Below are positions 20,973 through 51,389 of a DNA stretch of 64,000 bases, in pieces (within the stretch, counting starts at the first letter, position 1; the number at the start of each line of letters is the position of its first letter). Location of the stretch: contig SDOX01000001.1 of NCBI GenBank assembly GCA_004565275.1, positions 248,001 through 312,000 on the forward strand, read 5' to 3'. The notes below the pieces were generated by a model. That model saw nothing but the letters and a program-made list of their open reading frames with translations. It was not told the DNA's origin and did not search any database. A program made the position numbers and the translations under genes. Origin of the DNA: Nannochloropsis salina CCMP1776. Lineage: Eukaryota; Sar; Eustigmatophyceae; Eustigmatales; Monodopsidaceae.

Positions 20973-23900
20973 CTAGGGCATGATCCCATTCGTCCACAAT
21001 TGAAACTTGTCGTACCACCGCGTCCCACAGGCATCGTAGGAGCGAGCAACGAGCCCGTCCACTATTCTAATGATCTGGGCGTCCGAGAGAGTCTGGCCGT
21101 AACAGAGGCGGGCCTTGAAGGCAGCAATCGCCTGCGCCGGCCCTACTTTCACGAAGCACGGGAACTTGGACTGGAAGGACATGATTTCCATCAGACAGAT
21201 CACGGTTTCGGCGTGGGCGTGTGCCGTCTTGAAGCCTTGGACCATTAGCTCCTTGTAGTAGCTGAGGAGGGGGAGGAGAGGCACAAACGGAAAAGTGAGG
21301 GTGGAGGAGTGGAACAGACGGCATACGACCCCAACCTCCATGTCGGGAGCGACAGAGGGATCCATGTCTACAATCAAGGCAAGCACGATAAGTCCAATGA
21401 ACTCACGATGCAGCCACCTTCCTGTCTCACCTGAATAAGGCAGAATCGGGTCCGTCGAGAATCTCCAGCATCTCCGCGGTCAGCTTGAAGGGTGCGCGTT
21501 CAAAAGAAAATCTCCCCCCGGGCCTGACCCCCAGGACGAAGCCGAAGTCGATGTGGATGACGTGGCCCTTCTTGTCGATCATGATGTTCCCGTTGTGACG
21601 GTCCTTAAAGAAGAGCAGGTAGGAGAGCAAGGAGTACCCCGCCAGTGACTGGGCAAAATTCTGCTGCGCGGCTTTGAATTCCGGCGAACCGCTCCCCCCG
21701 TAAATCTTCTCAAAGTGGCCCCGCAACGTCCCGGGGTAGTCACTGCTCTTCTTGAGCCCGTCGAAGGAGATCGCGTCCGTCAAGAAGGCGATCAGGCCCG
21801 TGCTGTTGCCGGTGCTGATAATCTTGTAGGACCGCAACCAGATCGCGAGCCCCGCCAGCCTGAACACCTCCTCGTAGAAGGAAATCAGCTCCATGATGAA
21901 CACCTCCTGCCTCACGTCGTCGTGGCTCTTCACGATCACCGCCTGGAGGTCCCATCGGCCCGCCGCCACGGCCTCCGTGAAGGAAGTCTTCTCCCGCAAT
22001 CGGTTCCTCTTCTGCACCCACACCTCCCCGTAGCAGGGCACGATCTTGTTCGGGTCCTCAAAGTCACTTTCCCGTCGTCCTCCCTCCCCTTCCATCGACG
22101 ACCGCATGGAAAGTCCCAGCGCGGCTTCGATCTTGGAACCCATGCTCATCAAGCCGCCCCCCCCGCCTCCCCTTGTGCTTCCCCCCAGCCCTGCCAAAGC
22201 TCCTCCCCCAATTTCCTTTCCTTCCCCACGCGCACTGTGCATAGAGGGCATCCGCCGTTTCCGAAGAGCAGCTCGAAATTCGGCCGGGATCTTCCGCAGC
22301 TCCTGCGCTATGTTGGGGCGACTGACGCGCCACAAGGAGGGATTCGTGCGCCCGCTCGCCGACGCGCGCATTCCGATGCTGGGCAGACTCAACCGACGCT
22401 GTGCTTGAGCGCCTTCCCCTGCCTGCACGTCCCCGAGATCCTCGTCCTCCCGGTCCACAAGGGGCCCCAGGCAGAGGGGGGCTTCCTGCCCGTGCTGTTT
22501 GGAGGACGGCCCGAGGCTGGAAATGGATTGCACCGAAGTGATCGAGGTAGGGACGTGGTTTCCATTGGCGTCTGCGTCCTGGGTGTCAGTGTCGGTGGCG
22601 GAGGAAGCCCCGGTCTGGGAGGATGAATGGTACGAGATGGAGGAGAAGATGGTCGCAAATGTGGAGGGGGCGGGCCCTTTCGCGCGGCTGTCGGTGATGG
22701 CGCCTGCCTGGGCGTCCTCCGCAGCTTTGCGTGGGAGCGTCTCCCCGCTCCCACCGTTCGCGTTGGCCATCTCCAGCCCCCCACCCCCCTGGCTGGCGCT
22801 CAGACGCAAGGAGGGCGGCGTCTCTCCGTCCGCGTCCAAGGCGCCGTACCGCTGGTGCAAGTAGTTGGCCACGTCCACCTGCATGTCCTTCTCCACCTCG
22901 AAGAGAACCAGGCAGGGGCAGCGCTCCTTGGTGCTGAAAGCCCGGGCCTCTTCGGGAAGGAGGCCCAGGATGCGACACCAGGGTTCGGTGGACTGGCAGA
23001 GGGGCAGGTAAGCGGCGGGCGGGATCTTCACGTCGGGGAGGCGTTCTTTCAGGGCCCGAGTGCGGATGCCTCGGTCCAGGAAACGCATCTCCTCGGAGAT
23101 GTCCGTCAGTCGGTTGATAAAGTCGCGCTGGGACTTGAAGAATTGGTAGCGTCCGAACTCTGCGGGGTAGAGCATGTGCTCCTCCCCTTTCTGCAGAAAG
23201 GTGGGGGCCATAGACTGGGCCTTCAGCTGGTTCACCCATTGCTCCATCTCCTCCTTCGTCTCCGCCTTGAGCATGTAGACACAGGCTGCCCCCCCGGTGG
23301 CGGCCGGGGAGACCTCGAAGTAGTGCTCGTGCCGAGGGTGGTCCACCACGGCCACGACGGCCGCCTCCAAGGGAACGGCCCGGTGCAGGCGTCCGCAGTC
23401 CTTGCTGTTGTAGCAGTAGAGGACCCGGTCCTGGATCTTGAACCAGCGAAGCTTCCAGCCTTTGGAGTGGCAGCACGAGCGCCGGAGATGCCGCTTGTAG
23501 GCGAGCTGCCCCTCCATGACACTGTGCTCCTTTCCTCCCACGGTGATTTCCGTCGGATCCAAAATTTGTGCCGCCTGAAACCGCCGCTCCGCGATCCCCA
23601 GCTCCTCCAGCTCCGTCTTGCTCAGCTTGCCCGACCGGTACAGGTCTTCCAGATGCCGGACACGGGGGGCGCCGTAGACTACACAGCGGTGGACGTTTTG
23701 CAGGAGCTTGGCGCACCGGCGGTAGTATCGCTGGTTCCCATGCACAGTCCTGCGCCCGTCCGACCCCTCCACCTGATAGTCTTCCATGGCGCCCACCAAG
23801 ATGAAGTGCAGCTGCAGGGCGAAATGCAACGAGTGTTGGCAAACGATTAGCACGAATTGCTCCAATGCCGCTGTCGGCCAATCGACCTCGAGGTGGATAA

Positions 23901-24105
23901 TCATGTGGGCGAGCTGAGGGAGGTAGAACTCAATACCCTCGAAGACCGTCTTCTGGTCCGAGTACTCCGAGAGCAAGTCCGCAAGCTCGCTGATGACTTC
24001 CGGCCTATGCCGGTTTTTCCAAATGATGATGGTCGCTTTGCGCATGTCGACCGAGTCGTCCGCGGTGAGCAGGTCCTCCAGCGAGCTGATGGAGGGGAGC
24101 GACAT
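20973..24105 (-). CDS. PI4KB: phosphatidylinositol 4-kinase, type III beta, with PH domain
   Basis: Exons 24105-21431 and 21261-20973 (GT-AG), about 987 residues. The N-terminal 190 residues match the helical lipid-kinase-unique region of PI4KIII-beta (EFYLPQLAHMIIHLE, HFALQLHFILVGAMED). A PH domain follows at about 195-300 (VMEGQLAYKRH, GWKLRWFKIQDRVLYCY, EEMEQWVNQL). A long Ser/Gly-rich linker leads to the catalytic domain from about residue 690: KSHDDVRQEVFIMELI, then the loop FFKDRHNGNIMIDKKGH and HIDFGFVLG. The junction restores FSYYKELMVQGF, and the typical C-terminal WYDKFQ ends the protein. The enzyme makes PI4P on Golgi membranes. A frame continues upstream of 24105 without an ATG, so a 5' exon is possible. 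The PH domain is not part of the animal or yeast enzyme. Confidence 0.92.
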
Positions 24106-25635
24106 CGAATCGGAAAAGAGAGAAAAACATTCAACATGAGCCTTGCGAACACAAGAGGCGGATGACAAAAAATCCGTCCATCTCTCTGATAGGTTGAAGG
24201 TCACACACACGATCTTGCAGAAGCTCTTCGCAAAAGCGGATTGCTAATCTGTCAGGCAATCGCTCAGATCGGTTTTTCCACTTACAAGTGCTCCGTCCTG
24301 ACATTCTTTGACGCCGCACCTCCCATCTTTGTATGGATCTGCTCCTGCCGCTTTGCCTTCTATCCAATGAAGGGTAAATTAGTATGTTTTCGGTAGAGTA
24401 GCGGCGCTGTCTGGATGACTCTTCGACGGGCAATGGTCAGATTCCCCTTCCGCTCCTTTTCAAACAGTCAGCCGCCTCCGTCTCGGTTGGCGCAAAGACA
24501 ACGTCCTAAGGTTAGTCACAGGCGAAAAGAAATGTTTAAAAGGCTGTGGCACACCATACACACGCGGCACGGGTGATGTAAAGCCCCTATAAAAGGAGGC
24601 CTTCTAGTCTACACGTTCCGCCTCTCGCTCGTTCCAATCTCGGAAATGAGGAAACAGGGCATCTAGTGAGAGGAAATTCCCACCGCCTGTCGCAAGTAAG
24701 CATTTCCGACAAAGCCTTTCCACGACAGACAGAGCGGATATGACAGGGGTGATGAAAACAAATCGGTCGTGAGAGCAAGAAGTAGACTGACATGCAAGCC
24801 AGAGATGGCACGTTAGCGCATGACTTGCGTCGCCGCATGGAAGTACCGCGATGGTCCCAGCTCAATGAGCGGCTCGGAACGGCCGGGCGAGCGGGAAGCG
24901 AAATAAATGAGAAAAAAACGTGCGCAACAAACAGACAAATCTCGTTGCCACGCACGCAATAGGGATAACATATTGAGTTCCAGTCGATGAATGGAAGCTT
25001 CGTCTTATTTTTACAGAGCTTGAGATAGGGGTTAGGCTTAACGGACAGGGGCGGGAAGCTTTTTTGTTGGTAAGATCCACCGACCTAGGGAAGGGCGTGC
25101 CAGAGATAACAAGCTACACAGACATGCTGTCACCTTGTAACTCTTTCGATTGTGAGTGCATCGCGTTCGATCATGGAGTTGCGCAAAGTCTATCGCTTCT
25201 TTTTCGTTGCTCGGGCCAAGACACCTAGACCAAGCGGTGGGCCTGCCATTTTCTTTTCCTGCTCCTGTCAAACAGATGATCAATGGGCAGAGATACCCAG
25301 AAAAAGAGGAAGATGAGCTTGAAAATTTATGAGCAATAGGATATGTATTTTGTGATTTATCGGATATTTTTGTGAGCAAGCGTACAAACAAACTATCTGC
25401 AATACACACATGCAGACACACCTCCCAAAAAATATGAAAATAAGCGTTGGAAGCCATGGAAACCAGCGTAACGACCTTTTAAATGTCCAAGCGGTAGGGT
25501 CGCAGGAAGCGATCGTGGTACGATTCACACCAAGAGGGCTGTCAGGAGAGAATCGTCTCCTCCTTCTGCCATGTTCGAGCATGCATGAACCAAAGAGGTC
25601 GAAGCCCTCCCTCCGTGGAACCAGGCCGAAAGATT
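24106..25635. other. intergenic region, about 1.5 kb
   Basis: It carries the promoter side of PI4K. Short open frames here show no coding character or family. No RNA gene or repeat stands out. Confidence 0.4.
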
Positions 25636-27163: not shown

Positions 27164-29313
<2,150 letters not shown>

Positions 29314-29332
29314 ATTTTGGACCTTGGAAGGG

Positions 29333-29342
29333 TTTAAATATA
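29333..29342 (-). promoter_or_regulatory. TATA-like element of the PH-MAPK gene
   Basis: TATATTTAAA (minus strand) begins 29 bases before the ATG at 29313. It supports that ATG over the one at 29445. Confidence 0.45.
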
Positions 29343-30023
29343 TTTTTTTATGAGCACATTTCCATTTCGTCGATCGCAGGGAGGGAAGGAATCGCGACGG
29401 CTGCAGCACCAGCCTGGGCCCATTCCGCTTGGCCGATGTCGCCATAAGTCAAAAGTCCCGCATATAAAGCGGGACTCCGAATGGAGAACATTAGACCTTG
29501 CCCACACACACCTGTACTATCATACGCATGGAAGCGTCCAAGACGCATCCCGTGAGGACAAGTGCACGGTCCTTTGGTCCCGTCCGCGGCCCCCCTGTGC
29601 CCACGCCCCCGACCTCGCCGTGCCACCCGCGGCCTCGGCGACGTGGACGGCAAGAAAGGGGGAGCCGGAAATCCAAGGCTTTATTCCACCACGGCCCGTC
29701 TTCCGCCCCGCCTGGAGATGAAAACATGCCCTTGGTGTCAACTTAAGTGCAGGAGAGTGGAATGCGGTCGGGCGTCCGCACTCTCATCTCACGTGTGTCG
29801 GGCTCACATAAAGCTAACCTGCGGCTTACTCCAGTCGCGCCCTCGCTCCTCGCGCTCTGTCATCACCAATGTAGTCCTGAAGCACTCTGCCCGTCCTCAT
29901 CACCCCACGTCTGACAACAAAGCACAGGATAATTTAACAGAGATTCAAAGTACTATCTGGATCACGTGGCCTCCCGGGCCTGCACCGCTCACCCAAGTCA
30001 AACCTTTGCCCGCAGCGTCAGGC
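29343..30023. other. divergent region; possible upstream exon of the Gln-rich gene
   Basis: Mostly promoter sequence. A plus-strand frame open from 29562 runs into the Gln-rich gene and encodes CPWC followed by ALSSHVCRAH near 29723-29810, which resembles a C2H2 zinc finger. If real, the next gene starts earlier than annotated. Confidence 0.35.
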
Positions 30024-33323: not shown

Positions 33324-34296
33324 GATCAAAAATATGAGGCCTAAGCTACACGTGAAGAACTTGACAGTAACTAATGAGGAAATGCGATATGTACATGATA
33401 GTCTGCTGCTCTCAAGCAGCCTTTCGACTGAAAGGAGGAAAACGCCATGTGCCAAGAGTTTCTTCGACTTTGTGGAAAAGGTGTGTGTATTTCTCACGCC
33501 TTGTAAGAAACTCAGCGTATACGCAACCCAAATGTAAGTGATAAATGTGTGCTCCTAGCTGGAAAATATGGAGCTTTTTATCTCATCAGCGACAATGGTT
33601 TGAAATAGCATTGATGACAATATGAGTTATTCAAATGGAAGGAGGACTAAAGAACCGCGCGTCGATACCGAGATGGATCTGGACCTTGCTTGAAATGTTG
33701 AATGAGATGGTCTGTCAAAGATTAAAGTCATGTGAATGAACGTTAGAGCTTTCTTGCCTCTTGACCCCCCGCCTGGATAACTTTTATTCATTTTATCAGC
33801 CCAAGGCAACTTTTTATTAGAATGCGGCTTCTTCTGTACGTCATCGTTTTGCATTTCAAAGGATCGTTTGCGGGATCAAACAAGCCATTTATCGGTGGGG
33901 GTCAGGCTTTCATCCGAAAAAAATATGCTACAAGTAAAATATCATAGCAGGAGGTCCGCTACGACTTTGCGATCCCAAAGAAAAATGTGGCGACCTCCTG
34001 CTCCATCTCGGGCCCTATGGGGGGGTCGTCGTAACGGTTTTTTGAAAAATGTACACATACACGGGTGTGAGCTCATCCTCACATTTTTAATTATAATGCT
34101 CCAAGCGCCTTCATGATTGTTTGTTCTGTAAATGCTACGTGATTCATGCGACAATCAGAAGAGAGAAACGTGCTGTCCTTCACTTGTACTGCGCGTGCGC
34201 GTCTAATCACGTAGCAATTTCGCTCACTCGCGCTGGCGTCACTCCTTCCGTTTTCGTTGACACATACAAGCAAGGAACCCAATCCACATTAAGGAC
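33324..34296. other. intergenic region, about 1 kb
   Basis: Between two plus-strand genes, AT-rich. No gene seen; it should hold the kinesin promoter. Confidence 0.4.
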
Positions 34297-37200
34297 ATGG
34301 CCTCCCAAATGTGGAGTACGATGCGAAAGCGCGGTGGAAAATTTCTGGAGAATCTCAATCACACAGTTGAAGGTACGGCCAGCGAGTTCTTAGAGCTTGA
34401 TGATGGATTTCTCGAGGGTTCGTGCAGGGGCGAAGCAAACAACCAAATTGGGCCGGAGGAAGGATATAAGGCCGCCTTGATTCAATTTCAGCTGGACCAG
34501 GTCAAGCTAACGAAGGAATACCAAAAAGTAATCGGTGAAAAGGAAGCTGAATTGCGCCGGGTCCGTGAACTTTACAAGACTGAGACGGGAAAGGATCTAG
34601 ATGGAGATGACCAAGGCGCAGACCCAGTTGCAGATAACGCGGACACAAGCGTCAGCAGTTTAATTGGCGTGGGCACTGGTAGTGGTGAAAGGAATCCGAT
34701 GGCAGCATTCGCGAACATGAGTGCGGATCAGTTGCGCGCACAAGTGGAGGTGTTGCTGGATAGTGTAACATCCTGGGAGTCGAGGGTGGCCGAGTTAGTG
34801 GAAAGCAAGGCGGAATACGCCGCCCAGGTCGCTCGAATGCGCCTGCAAGTTGAACGTTCTGACCTACGTATGGGAGACTTGGTCGATCGTGTCAAGCTTC
34901 AACAGTCGCAGATGGAAAAGTACATTCTGATGGCCGAAGAGAGCAGGGCGAGGACCGTGAAGGACCGGGAGACGATCGAGGGCCTGGTGAGAGACTACAC
35001 GGCCTTGGTTGCCGAGTCGCAGGCGCAGGAAAGGCAGCAAGCATCCGCAATTGAAGACTTGGAGACCAAGCGTGACGAGCTTGTGGTGAAGCTGAAGGCC
35101 TACGAACGGAACATCATCCACTTGATAGACTCTCAGGCAGAAGCGGGCCTTAAGCACCAGGACGGGAGTGCGCCCAAGGCGGACAGCCATGCAGAAACTT
35201 CCGCTGTGGACAATACCGCGACAATGACGGCGACAGTGGATGCCCTGCAAAAGGAAATTAAGGCCAAAGAAGAAAAAATAAAGCAGTTGCTCGCCTCTCC
35301 TGCAGCATCAGCCCCACACACAGCCCACCCTCCGGACACGGCGTTGCTAGAGCGCGCCCAGGTTGCCGAGGCCGAAGCTGAACGATTGCGTAAAGAGCTT
35401 GAGCGCGCGAAACAGTCCCTTGAGCAGGTCACGAAGGCAGGGGAGAAAGTAAGCAGTGACTACGCAGCCCTGAGGGCCCGGAGGGACGAGGAGGAGCGGG
35501 CGGAGGCCGCTCTTCGGGAGGAGGTAACGGAGCTGCAGGCTAAGCTGGAAGCATCCTACAAGGGAGGCAAAGCGGAAATGGCAGCGCTGCAGGACCGGTT
35601 GGTGAAGATGGAAGGGGCCATGGTGCGGGAGGTGGAGGGAGCGCGCGTGCAGGCGAGAGAGGAAGCCAAGCAGACTTACCAGCGTCTGGTGGAGGTCGCG
35701 AACCAGGAGAAAGAGCAAGCCTTGGAGCTGTACGCCCAGGAAAATCGAAAGCGCAAGGCGGTGCACAACAAGCTGCTGGAGCTGCAGGGTAATATCCGCG
35801 TCTTGTGTCGAGTACGGCCCATGCTGGCGGTAGAGAAGGCGTCGGGGGAGGGCGGGGCGAAGGAGGTAACGGAGTATCCCTCCCCTGAGGACTTACTCGT
35901 CACCCGGGAGGACAAAGGTTCACGAAACAAGATGGCGTTCGAGTTTGACCGTGTCTTCGCCCCCGGCTCGAGCCAAGCGGAGGTTTTTGAGGCCGTTGCC
36001 CCTATTGTCACGAGCGTGATGGACGGGTATTCGGTATGTGGGAGGGTGTGATCGGGGTAACTCGCGTGGTGTCGCTGTCGCTCGAGCATTTGTGCGATGA
36101 TTGTTGTGCGTGGAAGGCTCTGTTTGCTCTCAAACCTCTTGTATTTCCCCGACAGCTGTGTCGACCTCGTTGCCCACTGACCGGCGACACTGTCTCTCCT
36201 ACCCCCTCTTCCAGGCCTGCATCTTTGCTTACGGCCAGACGGGGTCGGGCAAGACCCACACCATGGAAGGTCCTTCCGAGGACCGCGGCGTCAATTTCCG
36301 GGCTCTGGAAGAAATGTTCCGCCTACGCCAAGACCGGCAAGCTGACATGCGCTACACGCTTTCCCTGAGCATGCTCGAGGTCTACAACGAGACCATCCGG
36401 GACCTCTTGGCCGCCAAGGGCAAAGGCGGGGGGGCGGAGACGGCGAAATTGGAGGTCCGGATGGCGGAAAATGGGAGCTATGACGTGCCTGGACTGACGC
36501 TGGTTGAGGTTCATTCCTTAGACGAGGTTTGGCAGTTCATGACAGCGGGGAAACAAAGCCGGGCAGTGGGCGCGCACGATATGAACGAGCACTCTAGTCG
36601 CAGCCATTGCATCGTCTCTTTGCGGGTGCGGGGTGAGAATCTGCACAATAAATCCCTGGCAACGGTTTCAAAGCTGCATTTAATCGATTTGGCGGGCTCA
36701 GAGAGGCTGTCCAAGGTATGGAAATGATGTTGATGACGGAGCATGTAGGAGGTAGTTTGCATGGACAGACCACAGAAAGCACAGAATACCTTGCTTGAGA
36801 TGCGCACAACGGGCATGATGCTAGACTTGACCTGCATTCAAAACCTCGTCTGTGCCCCGTAATCGACTCAACATATAGTAATCCTCTGTCGTTCTTGCTT
36901 CCCCACGTTACAGACCGATGCCACAGGCGATCGCCTCAAGGAGGCTCAGAACATCAACAAATCCCTGTCTGCCCTTGGAGACGTCATCAACGCGCTGGGC
37001 AGCAAAAATAAGGCTCACATTCCCTACCGAAATAGCAAACTCACATTCCTCCTTCAGGATTCCTTGGGGGGCAACAGCAAGGTAAGCCTGGCTGGAGGTT
37101 TGAGAGAGGGCTTGACGGGGCACCGACTAATTCACGTTGATGTCAATTGTCGCTCATATATTTCTGTTTCCTTGAATTAGGTTTTAATGTTTGTGAATAT

Positions 37201-37708: not shown

Positions 37709-40700
37709 TCACGTTCGTACAGTACTCATGTCTAAGGCAAGCTGAGTTATCCGCACCGACGTAAAGAGGTGCCCGCACAAACAACCTCCCACCGTCAGCG
37801 GGAAGACAGCGTTCTTCTGTTCCATTTGGACTCTGCCGTCCTTGCTCGTGATCGGTATCACGCAGGTTCCCAGCTGTCCCTTTCTACCATCGCGAAGAGA
37901 GAAGATGGCATGGAGTCCTCCGTAGTCCATGCGAGTACAGGAGACGACAGTCACACCGTTCTTTTTCGCCGCGCAGTAGGACATGAGGGAGAAGAAGTTG
38001 AAAGGATTGTACTCGACCTTGTTTGTCAAGAAGACAATCTGTTTGGAAACCGCTGCCACGATGGCTGGCCGACGGAGGGTGCTAAAGCAGTCTTCGTTGT
38101 CCAAGGGGAATAGGACAAAAACGCTGGCCTCGTCCCGAGGCGCCGAGCCTTTGCCTGCCGGACGGTCTCCCCCGTGCTTACTGCTCCCGCCCGCCCTGTG
38201 TATTCCTATCTGGTTGGCAGCCAGCAGCTCAACCCGCAGGTCCGTAAGCTCCAGGATGTAGAAGCAAGCGTCGTGGACCGTAATCACGTCGCGATTGTGG
38301 ACCATGGACGGGTTCTGAAGGCAACTTTTGGCTTGGTGGAATGAGTTGAGTCCCCGGACAGCCACATTCACGCGGGCGGTCACGAGCGTGGAGACCGGGC
38401 GGTGGTCCGAGCCCTGCAAAGCGTCGCACATCTCGTAGGGTCCCAGACGGATACGGTCTTTGAAGTCCTCCACCACGTGCAGGAGGATCCGGTCGGTGTA
38501 GGAGGGGATGCGGGTCGTCGCATGCCTTTGGGCCTTCTTGGCCCCCGCCGGTGCTCGGCTGGAGGCGGACACATCCTCCCCGTCCCTCCCGTCTTCGCCG
38601 TTCTCCACGCCGCTGCCGTTATATGAGCGGGAAAAGGCGCGAGTGGAGCTCGACTCCCACCCGCTGGATGCATACGACGGCGTCCTACTCGACGACTGCT
38701 CCTCCAGGGCCTGTCCTTGCGAATCGCGCTGCAGAAAGCGATAGTAGGGGGCGAGTATCCTGAGCCCGCGGTTCAACTTTTTGAGCGAAAGAGTTTTCTC
38801 CTTCACAACTGTGCTGTACGCAGTTTTTAAGATTTCTACGTCGCAATAGTCCCCACACTCCCCGTGCGGGCCTTTAATTCTCCGGTAGGACGGCGGGAAG
38901 CGGATCTTCCCCTCCTGAAAACCGTAAAAGATTGCCCCCTTCTCCATCCCTTGCCGCATCTCGTCGTCCCGCAAGAGCTGCTCCCAGGACGAGGCGTGCG
39001 ACCTGGCCCGCAGCCGTGAAAAGGACAAGTTGGGCCTTTGTTCAGGGGGGGGCAGCGGGAGCTGGAGCCCACCCGTCTCGGACTCCCCGGGCAGGCGCCT
39101 CTTCCCAGAGGCCAGGCCCGGGTCCCGTCTCCCCTCCTCCAGGTCAGGCCCCTCCGCCTTATGGCGCACGGCCGATTCCAGCGAAGACTGGGGCCTTCTC
39201 CACAGGCGCTCCCGTATGGAGGACCAGAGGCGTGCACTCCACGTCCGGCGCCGAGCTTCCCGTCGGTCCTGGTCGCCAGGTTCATCCAAGCCCCTGGCTG
39301 CAACCTCCACGGGCCCCTCCTGGGAGAGGTAGGAGGACGCTAGCCTCTTCATGGTCAGCTTGGCCATCTCCGTGTTCGAGGGCTCCAGGTATTCCTTGAC
39401 TTGTCGGACCAGACTCGAGACCCCTTGCCGCTCCTGCTCGCAGCAGACCTCCTCCGCCTCCTCGTCCACGGGATCCTCCTCCAGCAGCTCTGGCTCCCGC
39501 TGCCCCCCTTCATTCCCCCCGCTTTCCAATGTCCCTGGCTCATCCACACCCCCACAAGGCTCGCTATCGCGGACCTCGTCATCCTTCTCTTTCCTCCCTC
39601 CCTCCGACGGCGTTCCCTCCCCAGGGCCCGGGCCCCCATTCCCAGGCGCCAAGAGGAGGGCGTACCGATCCCGCCGCCACTCCTCCTGGCCGCCGCACAG
39701 AACGTCTCGTTCCCGCCGGCAAATGCTCGCCACGTCCTCCAGCACCTTCTCCGGATCCGTCCTCCGCAGGCGGTAGTTGACATCCCCAAGGAATATGCAG
39801 ACGTGATGCTGGTGATGCACGTCCAGCAGGTACTCCTCCCGCCACAAATTCGTTTCGTAAGTCAGCTGCCAGGCATCCTGATTCCGCTTGTCCAGCCGAG
39901 AGCGCCCCTTCAGGTCCGAGGACAGATGGCAGGCGAGTAGGGCGAAAGTTGTGTCGTAGTAGCGGAAGGCGAGACCCACGCCTCCCTTGTTCTGGGCGGT
40001 GGTCACCCCCAGGTTCTTCCCTCGGGCCACGGCGCTGTTCTTGGACTCGTGGAGCAGGAACCGGTTGGCTTGCACCTCCTCCGTGCGCGCCAACACCAAC
40101 AAGGCGATCAAGCCGTGGTAGCCGAGGGACTGGTAGGTGGAGCCGATGGCGCGGCGGTACATGACGTACCTCGCCGGGCCCCCCAGATGGGCGAGGACAT
40201 CTTCTCCCAGCCGGCGATAGACCATGCACTCCTGCAGACCCAGCACGTACACGTCCCGGTCCCGGGGAATCCAGGCCGCGAGCGCCTCCGGCCCCAAGGC
40301 TTTCGACTTGCACTCTCCCAGGTTGTAGGTGCTAATGAAAAGCTGCTTGTCCTGGAAGGAGGGCACCGGGGGGTCGGTGAAGAAGGGGAGCGGGTAGGCT
40401 TTCCCGATCAAGGTCAAGCGCACGGGCTCGGCGGCACTGGCCAGGTCCATGGAGGTCCTTCGCTTGGCCCCACGCTTTTGGCGCAGAAAGAAATGCCGGT
40501 AGAAGCGCGCGAGGCGGACGGCCCAGTCCTTGGGTGAGTAGAAAATGGCGTCCACGGGCCCCCGGAAGGCAATGGTCAGCATCTCCATACCACTCAGGAA
40601 GGGGGACTCCGCCCCGTTCCGCCAGATATACGCACGTGCGAGCACGCGGAAGACGTAGCCGTAGAGTATGACGGCCACACCAATGAAGACCAAGCGCGTG

Positions 40701-41368
40701 ACCATGCCGTCGCTGAGACGCCGGAAGAAGTTTCCGTGGTAGACAGTGAGCAGGCGCACGGCGTGCCGATGCTGCGTGACGCGGGCCAGACGGACGATGA
40801 CTATCATGGACACAATCCATGTGAAGAAGACCAAGGTAAAAAAGGCATAGAACTGTGTGGATACGCTGGTCAACCAACACAGTGACCCTGACCGCCCGAA
40901 CTCACGGGAGGCCGCAAGCGGGATGCATACAAAACTGGACACTAGCACGCAAACGAGGATGGATCGATTGAAGTACTCTTTCGTATCAGTCATGTCCCTT
41001 TTCCTAAGCATGAAATGGAAGGGATGCATCACCATGCGCATGATCAGGGCTAGTGTCATCACCTCTTCGAGCTGGAAAAAGAACCCCAAGAAACTGCAGC
41101 CGATCGAGTCTCCCCTCATGAAGAGGCCCCCCAGCAGTATTAAGCAGAGACAGCCATCTAAAATGGCTTTCAAGAGGAGGAAGTTTTCGAACAACCGAGC
41201 GACACTTTCGTTGGCCAAGTCAACTCTTTTTTGGAAGACCCGATGCCGCGCCGTGATGGCTACCGGGATGATTGCCAGGCCGGCAATGGCACCAGTCGCG
41301 CATATTACCCGGGACGTGTAAAGCTCCTCCTCCGTGGAATACCAAGGACCGGTGAAGCCCACAACCAT
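37709..41368 (-). CDS. seven-TM receptor-like domain fused to inositol-polyphosphate 5-phosphatase
   Basis: A single exon of 1219 residues from ATG 41368. About residues 20-270 hold seven hydrophobic helices in a cAMP-receptor-like GPCR pattern: Cys at the start of TM3 (IGCSFLGFFFQ), a second-loop Cys (SLCWLTS) for the usual disulfide, and a TM7 ending GPVDAIFYSP. From about 340 a 5-phosphatase domain has every signature: ISTYNLGE, LGLQE, NKGGVGLAF, CHLSSDLKGR with KRNQD, FLGDVNYRL, FPPSYRRI, PSYTDRILL and SDHRPVS. A disordered, acidic and Ser/Arg-rich insert of roughly 250 residues splits it between the GDVNYRL and FPPSYR motifs. A C-terminal region of about 230 residues (beta-rich by eye) is unassigned. 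The enzyme would remove the 5-phosphate from PI(4,5)P2 or soluble inositol phosphates, perhaps under receptor control. No intron breaks the fusion, so it is not an annotation join. Confidence 0.9.
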   Translation of the reverse strand: MVVGFTGPWYSTEEELYTSRVICATGAIAGLAIIPVAITARHRVFQKRVDLANESVARLFENFLLLKAILDGCLCLILLGGLFMRGDSIGCSFLGFFFQLEEVMTLALIMRMVMHPFHFMLRKRDMTDTKEYFNRSILVCVLVSSFVCIPLAASREFGRSGSLCWLTSVSTQFYAFFTLVFFTWIVSMIVIVRLARVTQHRHAVRLLTVYHGNFFRRLSDGMVTRLVFIGVAVILYGYVFRVLARAYIWRNGAESPFLSGMEMLTIAFRGPVDAIFYSPKDWAVRLARFYRHFFLRQKRGAKRRTSMDLASAAEPVRLTLIGKAYPLPFFTDPPVPSFQDKQLFISTYNLGECKSKALGPEALAAWIPRDRDVYVLGLQECMVYRRLGEDVLAHLGGPARYVMYRRAIGSTYQSLGYHGLIALLVLARTEEVQANRFLLHESKNSAVARGKNLGVTTAQNKGGVGLAFRYYDTTFALLACHLSSDLKGRSRLDKRNQDAWQLTYETNLWREEYLLDVHHQHHVCIFLGDVNYRLRRTDPEKVLEDVASICRRERDVLCGGQEEWRRDRYALLLAPGNGGPGPGEGTPSEGGRKEKDDEVRDSEPCGGVDEPGTLESGGNEGGQREPELLEEDPVDEEAEEVCCEQERQGVSSLVRQVKEYLEPSNTEMAKLTMKRLASSYLSQEGPVEVAARGLDEPGDQDRREARRRTWSARLWSSIRERLWRRPQSSLESAVRHKAEGPDLEEGRRDPGLASGKRRLPGESETGGLQLPLPPPEQRPNLSFSRLRARSHASSWEQLLRDDEMRQGMEKGAIFYGFQEGKIRFPPSYRRIKGPHGECGDYCDVEILKTAYSTVVKEKTLSLKKLNRGLRILAPYYRFLQRDSQGQALEEQSSSRTPSYASSGWESSSTRAFSRSYNGSGVENGEDGRDGEDVSASSRAPAGAKKAQRHATTRIPSYTDRILLHVVEDFKDRIRLGPYEMCDALQGSDHRPVSTLVTARVNVAVRGLNSFHQAKSCLQNPSMVHNRDVITVHDACFYILELTDLRVELLAANQIGIHRAGGSSKHGGDRPAGKGSAPRDEASVFVLFPLDNEDCFSTLRRPAIVAAVSKQIVFLTNKVEYNPFNFFSLMSYCAAKKNGVTVVSCTRMDYGGLHAIFSLRDGRKGQLGTCVIPITSKDGRVQMEQKNAVFPLTVGGCLCGHLFTSVRITQLALDMSTVRT

Positions 41369-41387
41369 GATCCAGTCTCTTCAAAAA

Positions 41388-47976: not shown

Positions 47977-50900
47977 ATGAAGGGACGTGGTGTTGAGTAC
48001 CGAACGGCCCCAACCAGCCCCTCCAAAGCGGACATGCAGGATGCTGTGCGGGGGCTAAAAGGCCTGACCAGATATGTAGACACACCAAACAAGTCAGCAG
48101 CGTCCTTTCAGTGCCCAAAGGAACTCTGCGCCGGTATGTTATATAGATGAACATAGACTGAAGGGTACATGGAAGTAAGGATTCTCACGACTGCCTCGAG
48201 ATTCTCGTGTATATCCCGGGGATGTGGCCCTCGGAAGATTCATCCACACCTGCCACGCCCTTACTCCTGGGGTAACTGCGACATCTTTGGTATTTTGATA
48301 TCTCAATGATTAGGTGATGCCTCTTTCTAACACATTTTTCTGCTCCCCCCATTTTCCCTCCACTTATCCCTCCTCTCAGTGCGCATCCTCGTTGTCCTCC
48401 ATCTGGTCCTCCACTTCTGCTACCAGACATTCGGCCCCGACGTTTTTCGGAACGTCTTCGTAGCTCGCCTCGCTGAGTGGGGTGCAATCCAATACAGCAC
48501 ATTATTGTGTCTGGAGGGAATGATCTTGGCTATCCGTTACGGTCGAGTCCCGGGGGGGGAGAAGGAAGAGGAGGACGAGAAGGACGCTCAAGCTCCGGAG
48601 GCCATTGCTTTCTTCAAGAGACATGCCTTAGAGGTGAGCACAAAAGGAGGGATGGTAGTAAAGAGACCAGAATGGACCGTCATCCGACCTGCAAGGCTGT
48701 TTGCTCGTTGTAGACGCCACGCTCACGCGCCTCTTGCACTCCCTTCCGCCCCTTTCCTCTCGCCCTCAGATCTATCCCCTCTACCTCATCGGCGTGGCAG
48801 CAACCGCCTCTTTCTCCCTCCTCACGACCGGGACAGGCTCCATGCGGCGTTTCCTCCTGACCGCCTCCGGGTTGGACGCCTGGACGCTCGGCAGCCCCGA
48901 CCTCCTCTCCCGGGACCCGACCTGGCTGGTGGCCACGCTCCTCTTCTACCTCAGCTTCTTCCCCGCCCTCCTCAAGCTGGCCCTGCCCGCCTCCCGCGGC
49001 ACCCTCTTGGGCGTGATGGCCACGGCGTGGGCGAGCACGGCAGTGGTCCCTCTCACCTTCCTCGGCTTCGACCTGGAGCTCGGCGCCGCGCCCCACCTGT
49101 TCACGCTCGGCACCACCTTTCCGCTCATGCACGCGGCTTCCTTCGTCTTCGGGGTCACCTTAGGTCTGTACTTCCTGAAGCTGGACAGAGAGGCAGTGGC
49201 AGGACTTTCGCAGTCCTTCCTTGGTACGGCGGCGGCGGCCGGCCTCCTCTTCTTCTTCCTCTCCACGGACATGTTCGAGGGGCGGATGCTCCTCTGGTGC
49301 TACGACGGGCTTTTCTTGGGCTTCATGGGTGTGATCCTGCTCCTCGCAGCCATTGGCAAAGACGCCTTTTTGGGAATCGCGCTCCGGGTCAAGTTCCTCT
49401 CTGAATTCTTGGGGCCCGCAGCCCTGACAGTCTACCTCCTGCAGGGGTTCTTCCTGGGCGTGGCTGGCTCCGTGGTGAACGCAGAGACGAGCACCCTCTT
49501 CTGGCTCGCGTTCTGGGCCGCGCTTTTGACTGCCGGCTTTTTTCTGCACAGGAGCTACCAGGCTGTTTACCTGCAGCAGATGCTACCTCTGATCTTAGCG
49601 GGCGAGGAGAGCGTCGCGACCGCAGGCAGGGGCCAGCCAACCCCCCCCCACCGCCCTTCCTCCCCGGCCTCCACTGCCTCCTCTTCCTCCACCTCCTCTC
49701 CCATCGCGGGCGCTTCAGCCGTCTTCCAGGACGACTTATCCTCCATCGAGGACCACGGCGCTGAGTACCCCATTCAAGGTTGGTTTTGGCACAAGAGTTT
49801 TCTGATGGTGGGCTTCCGCCTCGCCTGCTACTACGGGTCCATGGCCCTGACTATCTTTTTCTACATGACGCTGGCACTGCGCTTCGACTGGAAAGGCTTC
49901 GCCTCCGTCTATGATATGCCCGTCGCCAACGCTTTTGTGAACTTCTTGAAATACTGCGCCCTGCTTTCCCTGCCCTCCCTGACATTTTCCATGGTCGGAC
50001 ACATTCTCTTTCCCCCCGTCCTCCGCAAGCGGACGCCCTCCCTCGAAGCCCTGAAGAAGGCTTTCAAGCACAAAGTTTTCTTCAGGATCGTCACGAGAGG
50101 GAAGCACCCCAACCTGGTGCGATCCCACGTCCTGCACGCCAGCAACGTCCTCCGGGCCGCCCTGCCTCACTCCCAGTTCTGCCTCGAGGTGGCCACGGAC
50201 GCGCCCCTCGACCTCGACACTTTTTGTCCGGGTATGGCCACCGAGCTTCTGCTGCCCAAGAACTACGCCCCGGTGGGCGGCGCCAAGTTTAAAGCGCGGG
50301 CCTTGCAGTTCGCCATCGAAGCCTCCGCGGCGGAGCCCGGGGACTGGATCGTGCATCTGGATGAAGGTACGTCTTGCTCGGACTCCCCCCGCATTTTGAC
50401 ATCTCTCTCTCACTCCCCGAGATCATGTTCTTTTTCGCACATTGTACCTACGATACTCATTGGTGCCTTCCACCTTGATTTCTTCCTGTACAGAGACGCG
50501 TTTCGATGCTGAGACGGTCCGGGGGGTCCTAGCGCATTGTGTCGCGGAAGACGAGGCTATCGCCCGCGGGGCCAAGATCTACGGCAATATCGGACAAGGT
50601 GTGATCCTGTACGGCACGCAAGAGCCCGACAACTGGCTGACCACACTGGCGGACTCCGTTCGGGTGGGCGACGATTTCGGGAAGTTCCGCATCCAGTACG
50701 AGCTGCACGAGCCCCTGATCGGCATGCATGGCTCCTTCGTGGTCTCTCAGAACGCGGTGGAGAAACTGGTCACCTTCGACCACGGGATGGAGGGAAGCAT
50801 CACGGAGGACGCCTACTTTGCCCTGGTGGCGCAGGTGAAAGGGATTAAGTTCTCCTGGATCGACTCCTTCATGTACGAGCAATCCCCCTTCTCCTGCATC

Positions 50901-51389
50901 GACTTCATGCACCAACGCTGCCGGTGGTTCGCGGGCCTCTGGCTCATCGTCCTCTCCCGACGCATCCCCTTTTTGAACCGCGCCGTGCTCCTCTTCTTCA
51001 TGGCCACCTGGGCCGCCACGCCCTTGATCTGGCTCGCCATGACCCTGTGCATGTGCGTAGCTTCCTCCGTCCCTTACTGGTTCCGCGCCTGCATCGGACT
51101 CATCAGTGGAATGAGCACTTGGGGCTACATACTCGGCTTTGCCTTCACCTTCAAGGCCCGCGACGGCTCTGCGCGCCTTCTTCTCCTGTTCGGACTACAG
51201 CTCCTACTCCAACCTCTGTTTGCAGCCATGGAGCTGAGCGGAGTGGTGCTTGGCATCGTTGCGCCGCCCACACAAGGTTTTCATATCGTACAAAAGGAAG
51301 GGACAAAGGTCCAAAAGTCGACGGGGGCCATGTCGAGGAACAGCTCCCTGGCCTCCATTGGCAAATTGAACTCGGTCGATCACGTGTAG
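47977..51389 (+). CDS. acyltransferase-3 domain fused to egghead-like GT2 glycosyltransferase
   Basis: Exons 47977-48133, 48380-48633, 48770-50366 and 50494-51389 (all GT-AG), 967 residues. About residues 50-400 are an acyltransferase-3 multi-TM domain: ILVVLHLVLHF with the His of TM1, FFKRHALEIYPLYLIG across the second junction, WLVATLLFYLSFFP, and AASFVFGVTLGLYF. A Ser/Pro linker leads to a GT2 domain flanked by TM helices. It resembles animal egghead/BRE-3: WIVHLDEETRFD, ILYGTQEPDNWLTTLADS, DDFGKFR, GMHGSFVVSQ, GSITEDAYFA, EQSPFSCIDFMHQRCRWFAGL. Egghead adds mannose to glucosylceramide at the Golgi; AT3 proteins move acyl groups onto sugars. The combined protein may make an acylated glycolipid or glycan; the product is unknown. 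Frame and junctions fit one gene; the acyltransferase and GT parts share the same 1.6-kb exon. Confidence 0.87.

Follow-up and report, generated by a model that had tools for sequence, protein, structure and literature searches.

A single uninterrupted reading frame in the window (the whole stretch of 64,000 nucleotides that was analysed) joins a receptor-like seven-transmembrane (7TM) region to an inositol polyphosphate 5-phosphatase:

37709..41368, minus strand: complete single-frame gene for a 7TM region plus an inositol polyphosphate 5-phosphatase, GPCR-INPP architecture, 1219 aa (ORF, motifs and codon score)

We consider it highly probable that the product is a GPCR-INPP bigram, probably of a stramenopile, in which a 7TM receptor-like bundle anchors a PIP2-lowering cytosolic 5-phosphatase and controls it. 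According to the proposed mechanism, the seven-helix region, with its N terminus outside, would keep the cytosolic phosphatase at the membrane; an external cue would alter the helix bundle and so change phosphatase access or activity; and the enzyme would take the 5-phosphate off PI(4,5)P2 or a soluble inositol phosphate, with a local drop in PIP2. Membrane tethering and the enzyme class follow from the predicted protein sequence; GPCR homology, catalytic activity, substrate, ligand and coupling we infer. The coding frame, the PF22669 match, the PDB matches, the topology with its charge distribution and the publication of the same architecture argue for this reading. Against it stand the lack of a GPCR sequence match, a low-confidence structural model, a weak TM7, two inserts and a tension with PMC9694693.

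The GPCR-INPP class was named by van den Hoogen et al. in 2018, and its members have the same N-terminal 7TM region and C-terminal inositol polyphosphate phosphatase as the present protein (PMC5784254). The screen described there accepted 5 to 9 predicted TM helices; the present protein has seven at its N terminus, as six strong segments and one weak, and its C-terminal phosphatase domain (PF22669) belongs to the same protein through the continuous frame. Phytophthora infestans is reported to have seven such genes and other oomycetes one to nine; beyond the oomycetes the class is placed only in Nannochloropsis gaditana, a stramenopile microalga for which seven of these genes but no GPCR-PIPK are reported (PMC5784254). 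The present gene may be one of these seven or come from a relative. The fusion of 7TM region and 5-phosphatase is real, but the architecture was already described in 2018 from oomycetes and N. gaditana. The sequence-only reading had held that a photosynthetic stramenopile version is little described; this is out of date, and the argument for novelty fails because the published class includes the seven N. gaditana genes (PMC5784254). In tension with that class, PMC9694693 reports that human INPP5 is without a robust homologue in the oomycetes examined there. Dictyostelium RpkA and the oomycete GPCR-PIPKs are likewise described as a 7TM region fused to a phosphoinositide enzyme (PMC6033456, PMC5784254), which is a kinase in their case and a phosphatase in the present protein, and the LRxGI linker motif is reported in PMC5784254 for the GPCR-PIPK class only. 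With GPCR-INPPs but no GPCR-PIPKs reported in that source, N. gaditana would offer a clean setting for the phosphatase half alone.

The whole protein matched Pfam PF22669 with an E value of 2.7e-31 over three stretches, the best of them at residues 347-542, and residues 780-1000 alone matched the same family at 1.2e-17. The PDB search gave 14 sequences at E up to 1, every one of them an inositide phosphatase (10 bear the name 5-phosphatase, three are synaptojanin-1 and one is a phosphatidylinositol phosphate phosphatase), with SHIP2 ranked first and the 72-kDa 5-phosphatase, which we take to be INPP5E, second; an NCBIfam search returned no family. Six preset patterns were matched in order along the chain, namely NKGG at residue 460, CHL at 480, GDVNYR at 528, FPPSYR at 824, PSYTDRIL at 955 and SDHRPV at 987. 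The only match to the preset QE pattern lies within an insert (681); GLQE, at residue 377, was spotted by eye. The signatures of 5-phosphatases, GD.NYR, P[SA][WY].DR, SDH and NKG, are all present. The earlier claim of a 5-phosphatase with its signature motifs is thus borne out by the PF22669 match, the six ordered motifs and, by eye, GLQE. The parts of the domain and its motifs are as follows:

39740..40348, minus strand: N-terminal part of the 5-phosphatase, residues 341-543 (PF22669 at 347-542; PDB matches)
40229..40240, minus strand: GLQE, residues 377-380, aligned with the QE of SHIP2, presumably containing the metal-binding Glu
39980..39991, minus strand: NKGG motif, residues 460-463 (pattern match)
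39917..39931, minus strand: CHLSS, residues 480-484 (pattern match), presumed catalytic His region
39770..39787, minus strand: GDVNYR motif, residues 528-533 (pattern match), presumed catalytic Asp/Asn
38882..38998, minus strand: middle part of the 5-phosphatase, residues 791-829, ending in FPPSYR (PDB alignments, Pfam)
38369..38518, minus strand: C-terminal part of the 5-phosphatase, residues 951-1000, with PSYTDRIL and SDHRPV (Pfam, PDB alignments, motifs)

The 5-phosphatase motifs in the catalytic domains of SHIP2 and the 72-kDa enzyme (PDB 3nr8 and 2xsw) align with those of the present protein. Those two chains are without a 7TM match, whereas the present protein has its catalytic domain broken by two long inserts, beyond which lies a further region:

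38999..39739, minus strand: insert 1, residues 544-790, limits set by hand, coding by codon usage (codon score; spacing relative to SHIP2)
38519..38881, minus strand: insert 2, residues 830-950, between FPPSYR and PSYTDRIL, limits set by hand (codon score; spacing relative to SHIP2 and the 72-kDa enzyme)
37712..38368, minus strand: C-terminal region, residues 1001-1219, about 220 residues, without a Pfam or PDB sequence match

From residue 543 to 794 there are 251 positions against 7 in SHIP2 (204 to 211), and from 834 to 949 there are 115 against 13 (251 to 264), the last SHIP2 stretch being weak when taken alone; the two inserts therefore amount to about 245 and 100 extra residues. Insert 1 has a high content of Glu, Arg, Gly, Ser and Pro and is probably disordered. 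Insert 2, which codon usage likewise marks as coding (segments 791-872 and 873-945), presumably occupies the position of a short substrate-contacting loop in the human enzymes. Splitting the catalytic domain in this way could impair the enzyme. A model of residues 330-1219 was very poor (pLDDT 33.6, pTM 0.24). From our impression of human SHIP sequences, residues 1001-1219 are possibly C2-like; a C2 assignment is not claimed, since residues 995-1219 found no match in Pfam or PDB sequence searches.

The action models collected by van den Hoogen and Govers in 2018 include both direct activation and G-protein routes (PMC6033456). Under their models C to E the protein would be a receptor that signals through a G protein, with a phosphatase that is either regulated by that G protein or an inactive passenger. 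We regard this as doubtful for the present protein, although it has been put forward in print and the inserts within the catalytic domain are in keeping with it; the searched-for motifs are intact, and this speaks against an inactive enzyme. Direct control of the catalytic domain by a ligand, as proposed within the preferred GPCR-INPP reading, is itself one of the published models, put forward there as a hypothesis. We offer only tentatively a form of it in which a ligand would switch the tethered 5-phosphatase without a G protein, the two long inserts and the C-terminal region, possibly C2-like, acting as a regulatory relay. Were the coupling direct, a single protein would connect an outside signal to PIP2 removal, and direct signal transfer of that kind was called unprecedented in the 2018 review (PMC6033456).

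The features of the receptor-like half are the following:

40538..41314, minus strand: seven-helix region, residues 19-277 with hand-set limits, TM7 weak (hydropathy; helices also in a low-confidence model)
41096..41098, minus strand: Cys91, at the beginning of TM3, which may take part in a disulfide (sequence)
40877..40879, minus strand: Cys164 of the CWL motif, within predicted extracellular loop 2, which may likewise take part in a disulfide (sequence)
40439..40537, minus strand: basic region after TM7, residues 278-310, with 10 K+R, helix-8-like (charge count; helix 279-306 in a low-confidence model)

On the Kyte-Doolittle scale with 19-residue windows and a threshold of 1.4, six groups of windows exceeded the threshold within residues 16-249, and an isolated window did so in the C-terminal region (1187-1205, value 1.48). 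With helix limits set by hand, TM1 to TM6 reach hydropathy maxima of 1.52 to 2.35 and TM7 (257-277) is weak at 0.97. On hand-set limits as well, the loops predicted to lie inside carry 23 K+R against 4 in those predicted outside, consistent with an N-out/C-in topology, and the phosphatase is therefore predicted to be cytosolic. Cys91 and Cys164 are present where a TM3-ECL2 disulfide would sit, and to our eye the CWL motif and the end of TM7 resemble cAMP-receptor-like and adhesion receptors.

Searches for GPCR relatives gave no such match. Pfam scans of the whole protein, of residues 1-323 and of the cuts 1-290, 51-290 and 90-290, which allowed E up to 10 and whose filters drop most matches above 0.1, found no GPCR family; the Pfam names returned besides the phosphatase were non-GPCR and all below their cut-offs. 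Residues 1-345 had no PDB sequence match at E up to 10. A profile search of residues 1-280 against GPCR families, proposed with the sequence-only reading as its check, thus gave no GPCR match in Pfam (cut 1-290 and the others above). A single-sequence AlphaFold model of the 7TM part contains seven helices and a helix 8 at low confidence (pLDDT 46.9, pTM 0.29). Foldseek with this low-confidence model yielded 12 matches at E up to 10, of which none was a GPCR and none had E up to 0.001, an unusable result that is to be expected because confidence in the model is low. What stands of the proposed receptor-like 7TM domain is therefore its six strong segments and one weak, its N-out/C-in orientation and the Cys91/Cys164 pair; GPCR homology or fold was not confirmed. 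The GPCR label is plausible and based on predicted topology only, and the P. infestans screen likewise picked proteins by predicted helices and removed known non-GPCR membrane proteins (PMC5784254). Helices without detected homology to any GPCR family would also suit a simpler arrangement, in which they only place a membrane-anchored 5-phosphatase and sense no ligand. We think this unlikely, since the seven helices, their inside-positive loops and the candidate Cys pair between TM3 and loop 2 look receptor-like, and the 2018 authors interpret the GPCR-INPP class as receptors (PMC5784254).

The two halves lie in a single stop-free ORF of 1219 codons on the minus strand (37709-41368), which starts with an ATG at 41368, shortly after an in-frame stop; measured from stop to stop, the frame begins at 41380. 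When a 6-kb region was shuffled by mononucleotide 200 times, the longest stop-free run reached 312 codons (mean 171). A codon score was trained on nine hand-chosen long frames from the same window (4953 codons) and applied to nine segments, i.e., TM1-4, TM5-7, the linker, three phosphatase parts, the two inserts and the C-terminal region. The ORF frame scored best of six in 9/9 segments, and codon bias was lowest in TM1-4, where a CAI-like value of 0.652 compares with 0.583 +- 0.027 under random synonymous choice. That the ORF frame comes out on top throughout, linker and inserts included, makes one continuous coding exon likely; candidate splice sites are present in both inserts (insert 1 has one donor and insert 2 has two, and each contains one pyrimidine-rich acceptor). 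The inserts are unlikely to be introns retained in frame, as the ORF frame is the best of six in each and their synonymous codon choice, with CAI-like values of 0.759 and 0.749, stays within the 0.652 to 0.833 spanned by the other segments. The uninterrupted frame reported earlier between seven-helix domain and 5-phosphatase was thus confirmed by the absence of stops and by the codon score. That separate genes for the 7TM region and the 5-phosphatase, or alternative transcripts of the two, are joined only in the genomic frame is very improbable given 1219 codons without a stop, a linker whose codon bias is strong in that frame (0.36 bits per codon, best of six) and the published description of this pair elsewhere as a single protein (PMC5784254). 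No second copy of the gene was found within the window, where only two chance matches appeared (E above 5), and no relative turned up in a search of viral contigs and phages.

Other genes were observed in the window. Encoded on the minus strand at 21430-24243 is a phosphatidylinositol 3-/4-kinase that carries a PH domain internally (E 8.3e-12) and, slightly short of its cut-off (26.7 vs 27 bits), a PI4KB-type accessory domain; it is a second phosphoinositide enzyme in the window. A protein kinase, of MAPK type by eye, extends over two minus-strand frames at 27167-29448, with its first half at 28450-29448, where the kinase domain is preceded by a weakly matched N-terminal PH domain (E 0.002, short of the Pfam cut-off), and its second half at 27167-28066. 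On the plus strand, 48662-51389 contains two frames in succession: the first has a weak acyltransferase-3 match (E 0.00046, below the cut-off), and the next resembles a membrane glycosyltransferase by eye, so that the two are perhaps one fused gene. Convergent with the fusion gene lies a plus-strand kinesin gene (34261-36727), with a long N-terminal part that appears coiled-coil-like by eye and a C-terminal motor start (Microtub_bd and Kinesin matches), the motor continuing, again by eye, in 36263-36727.
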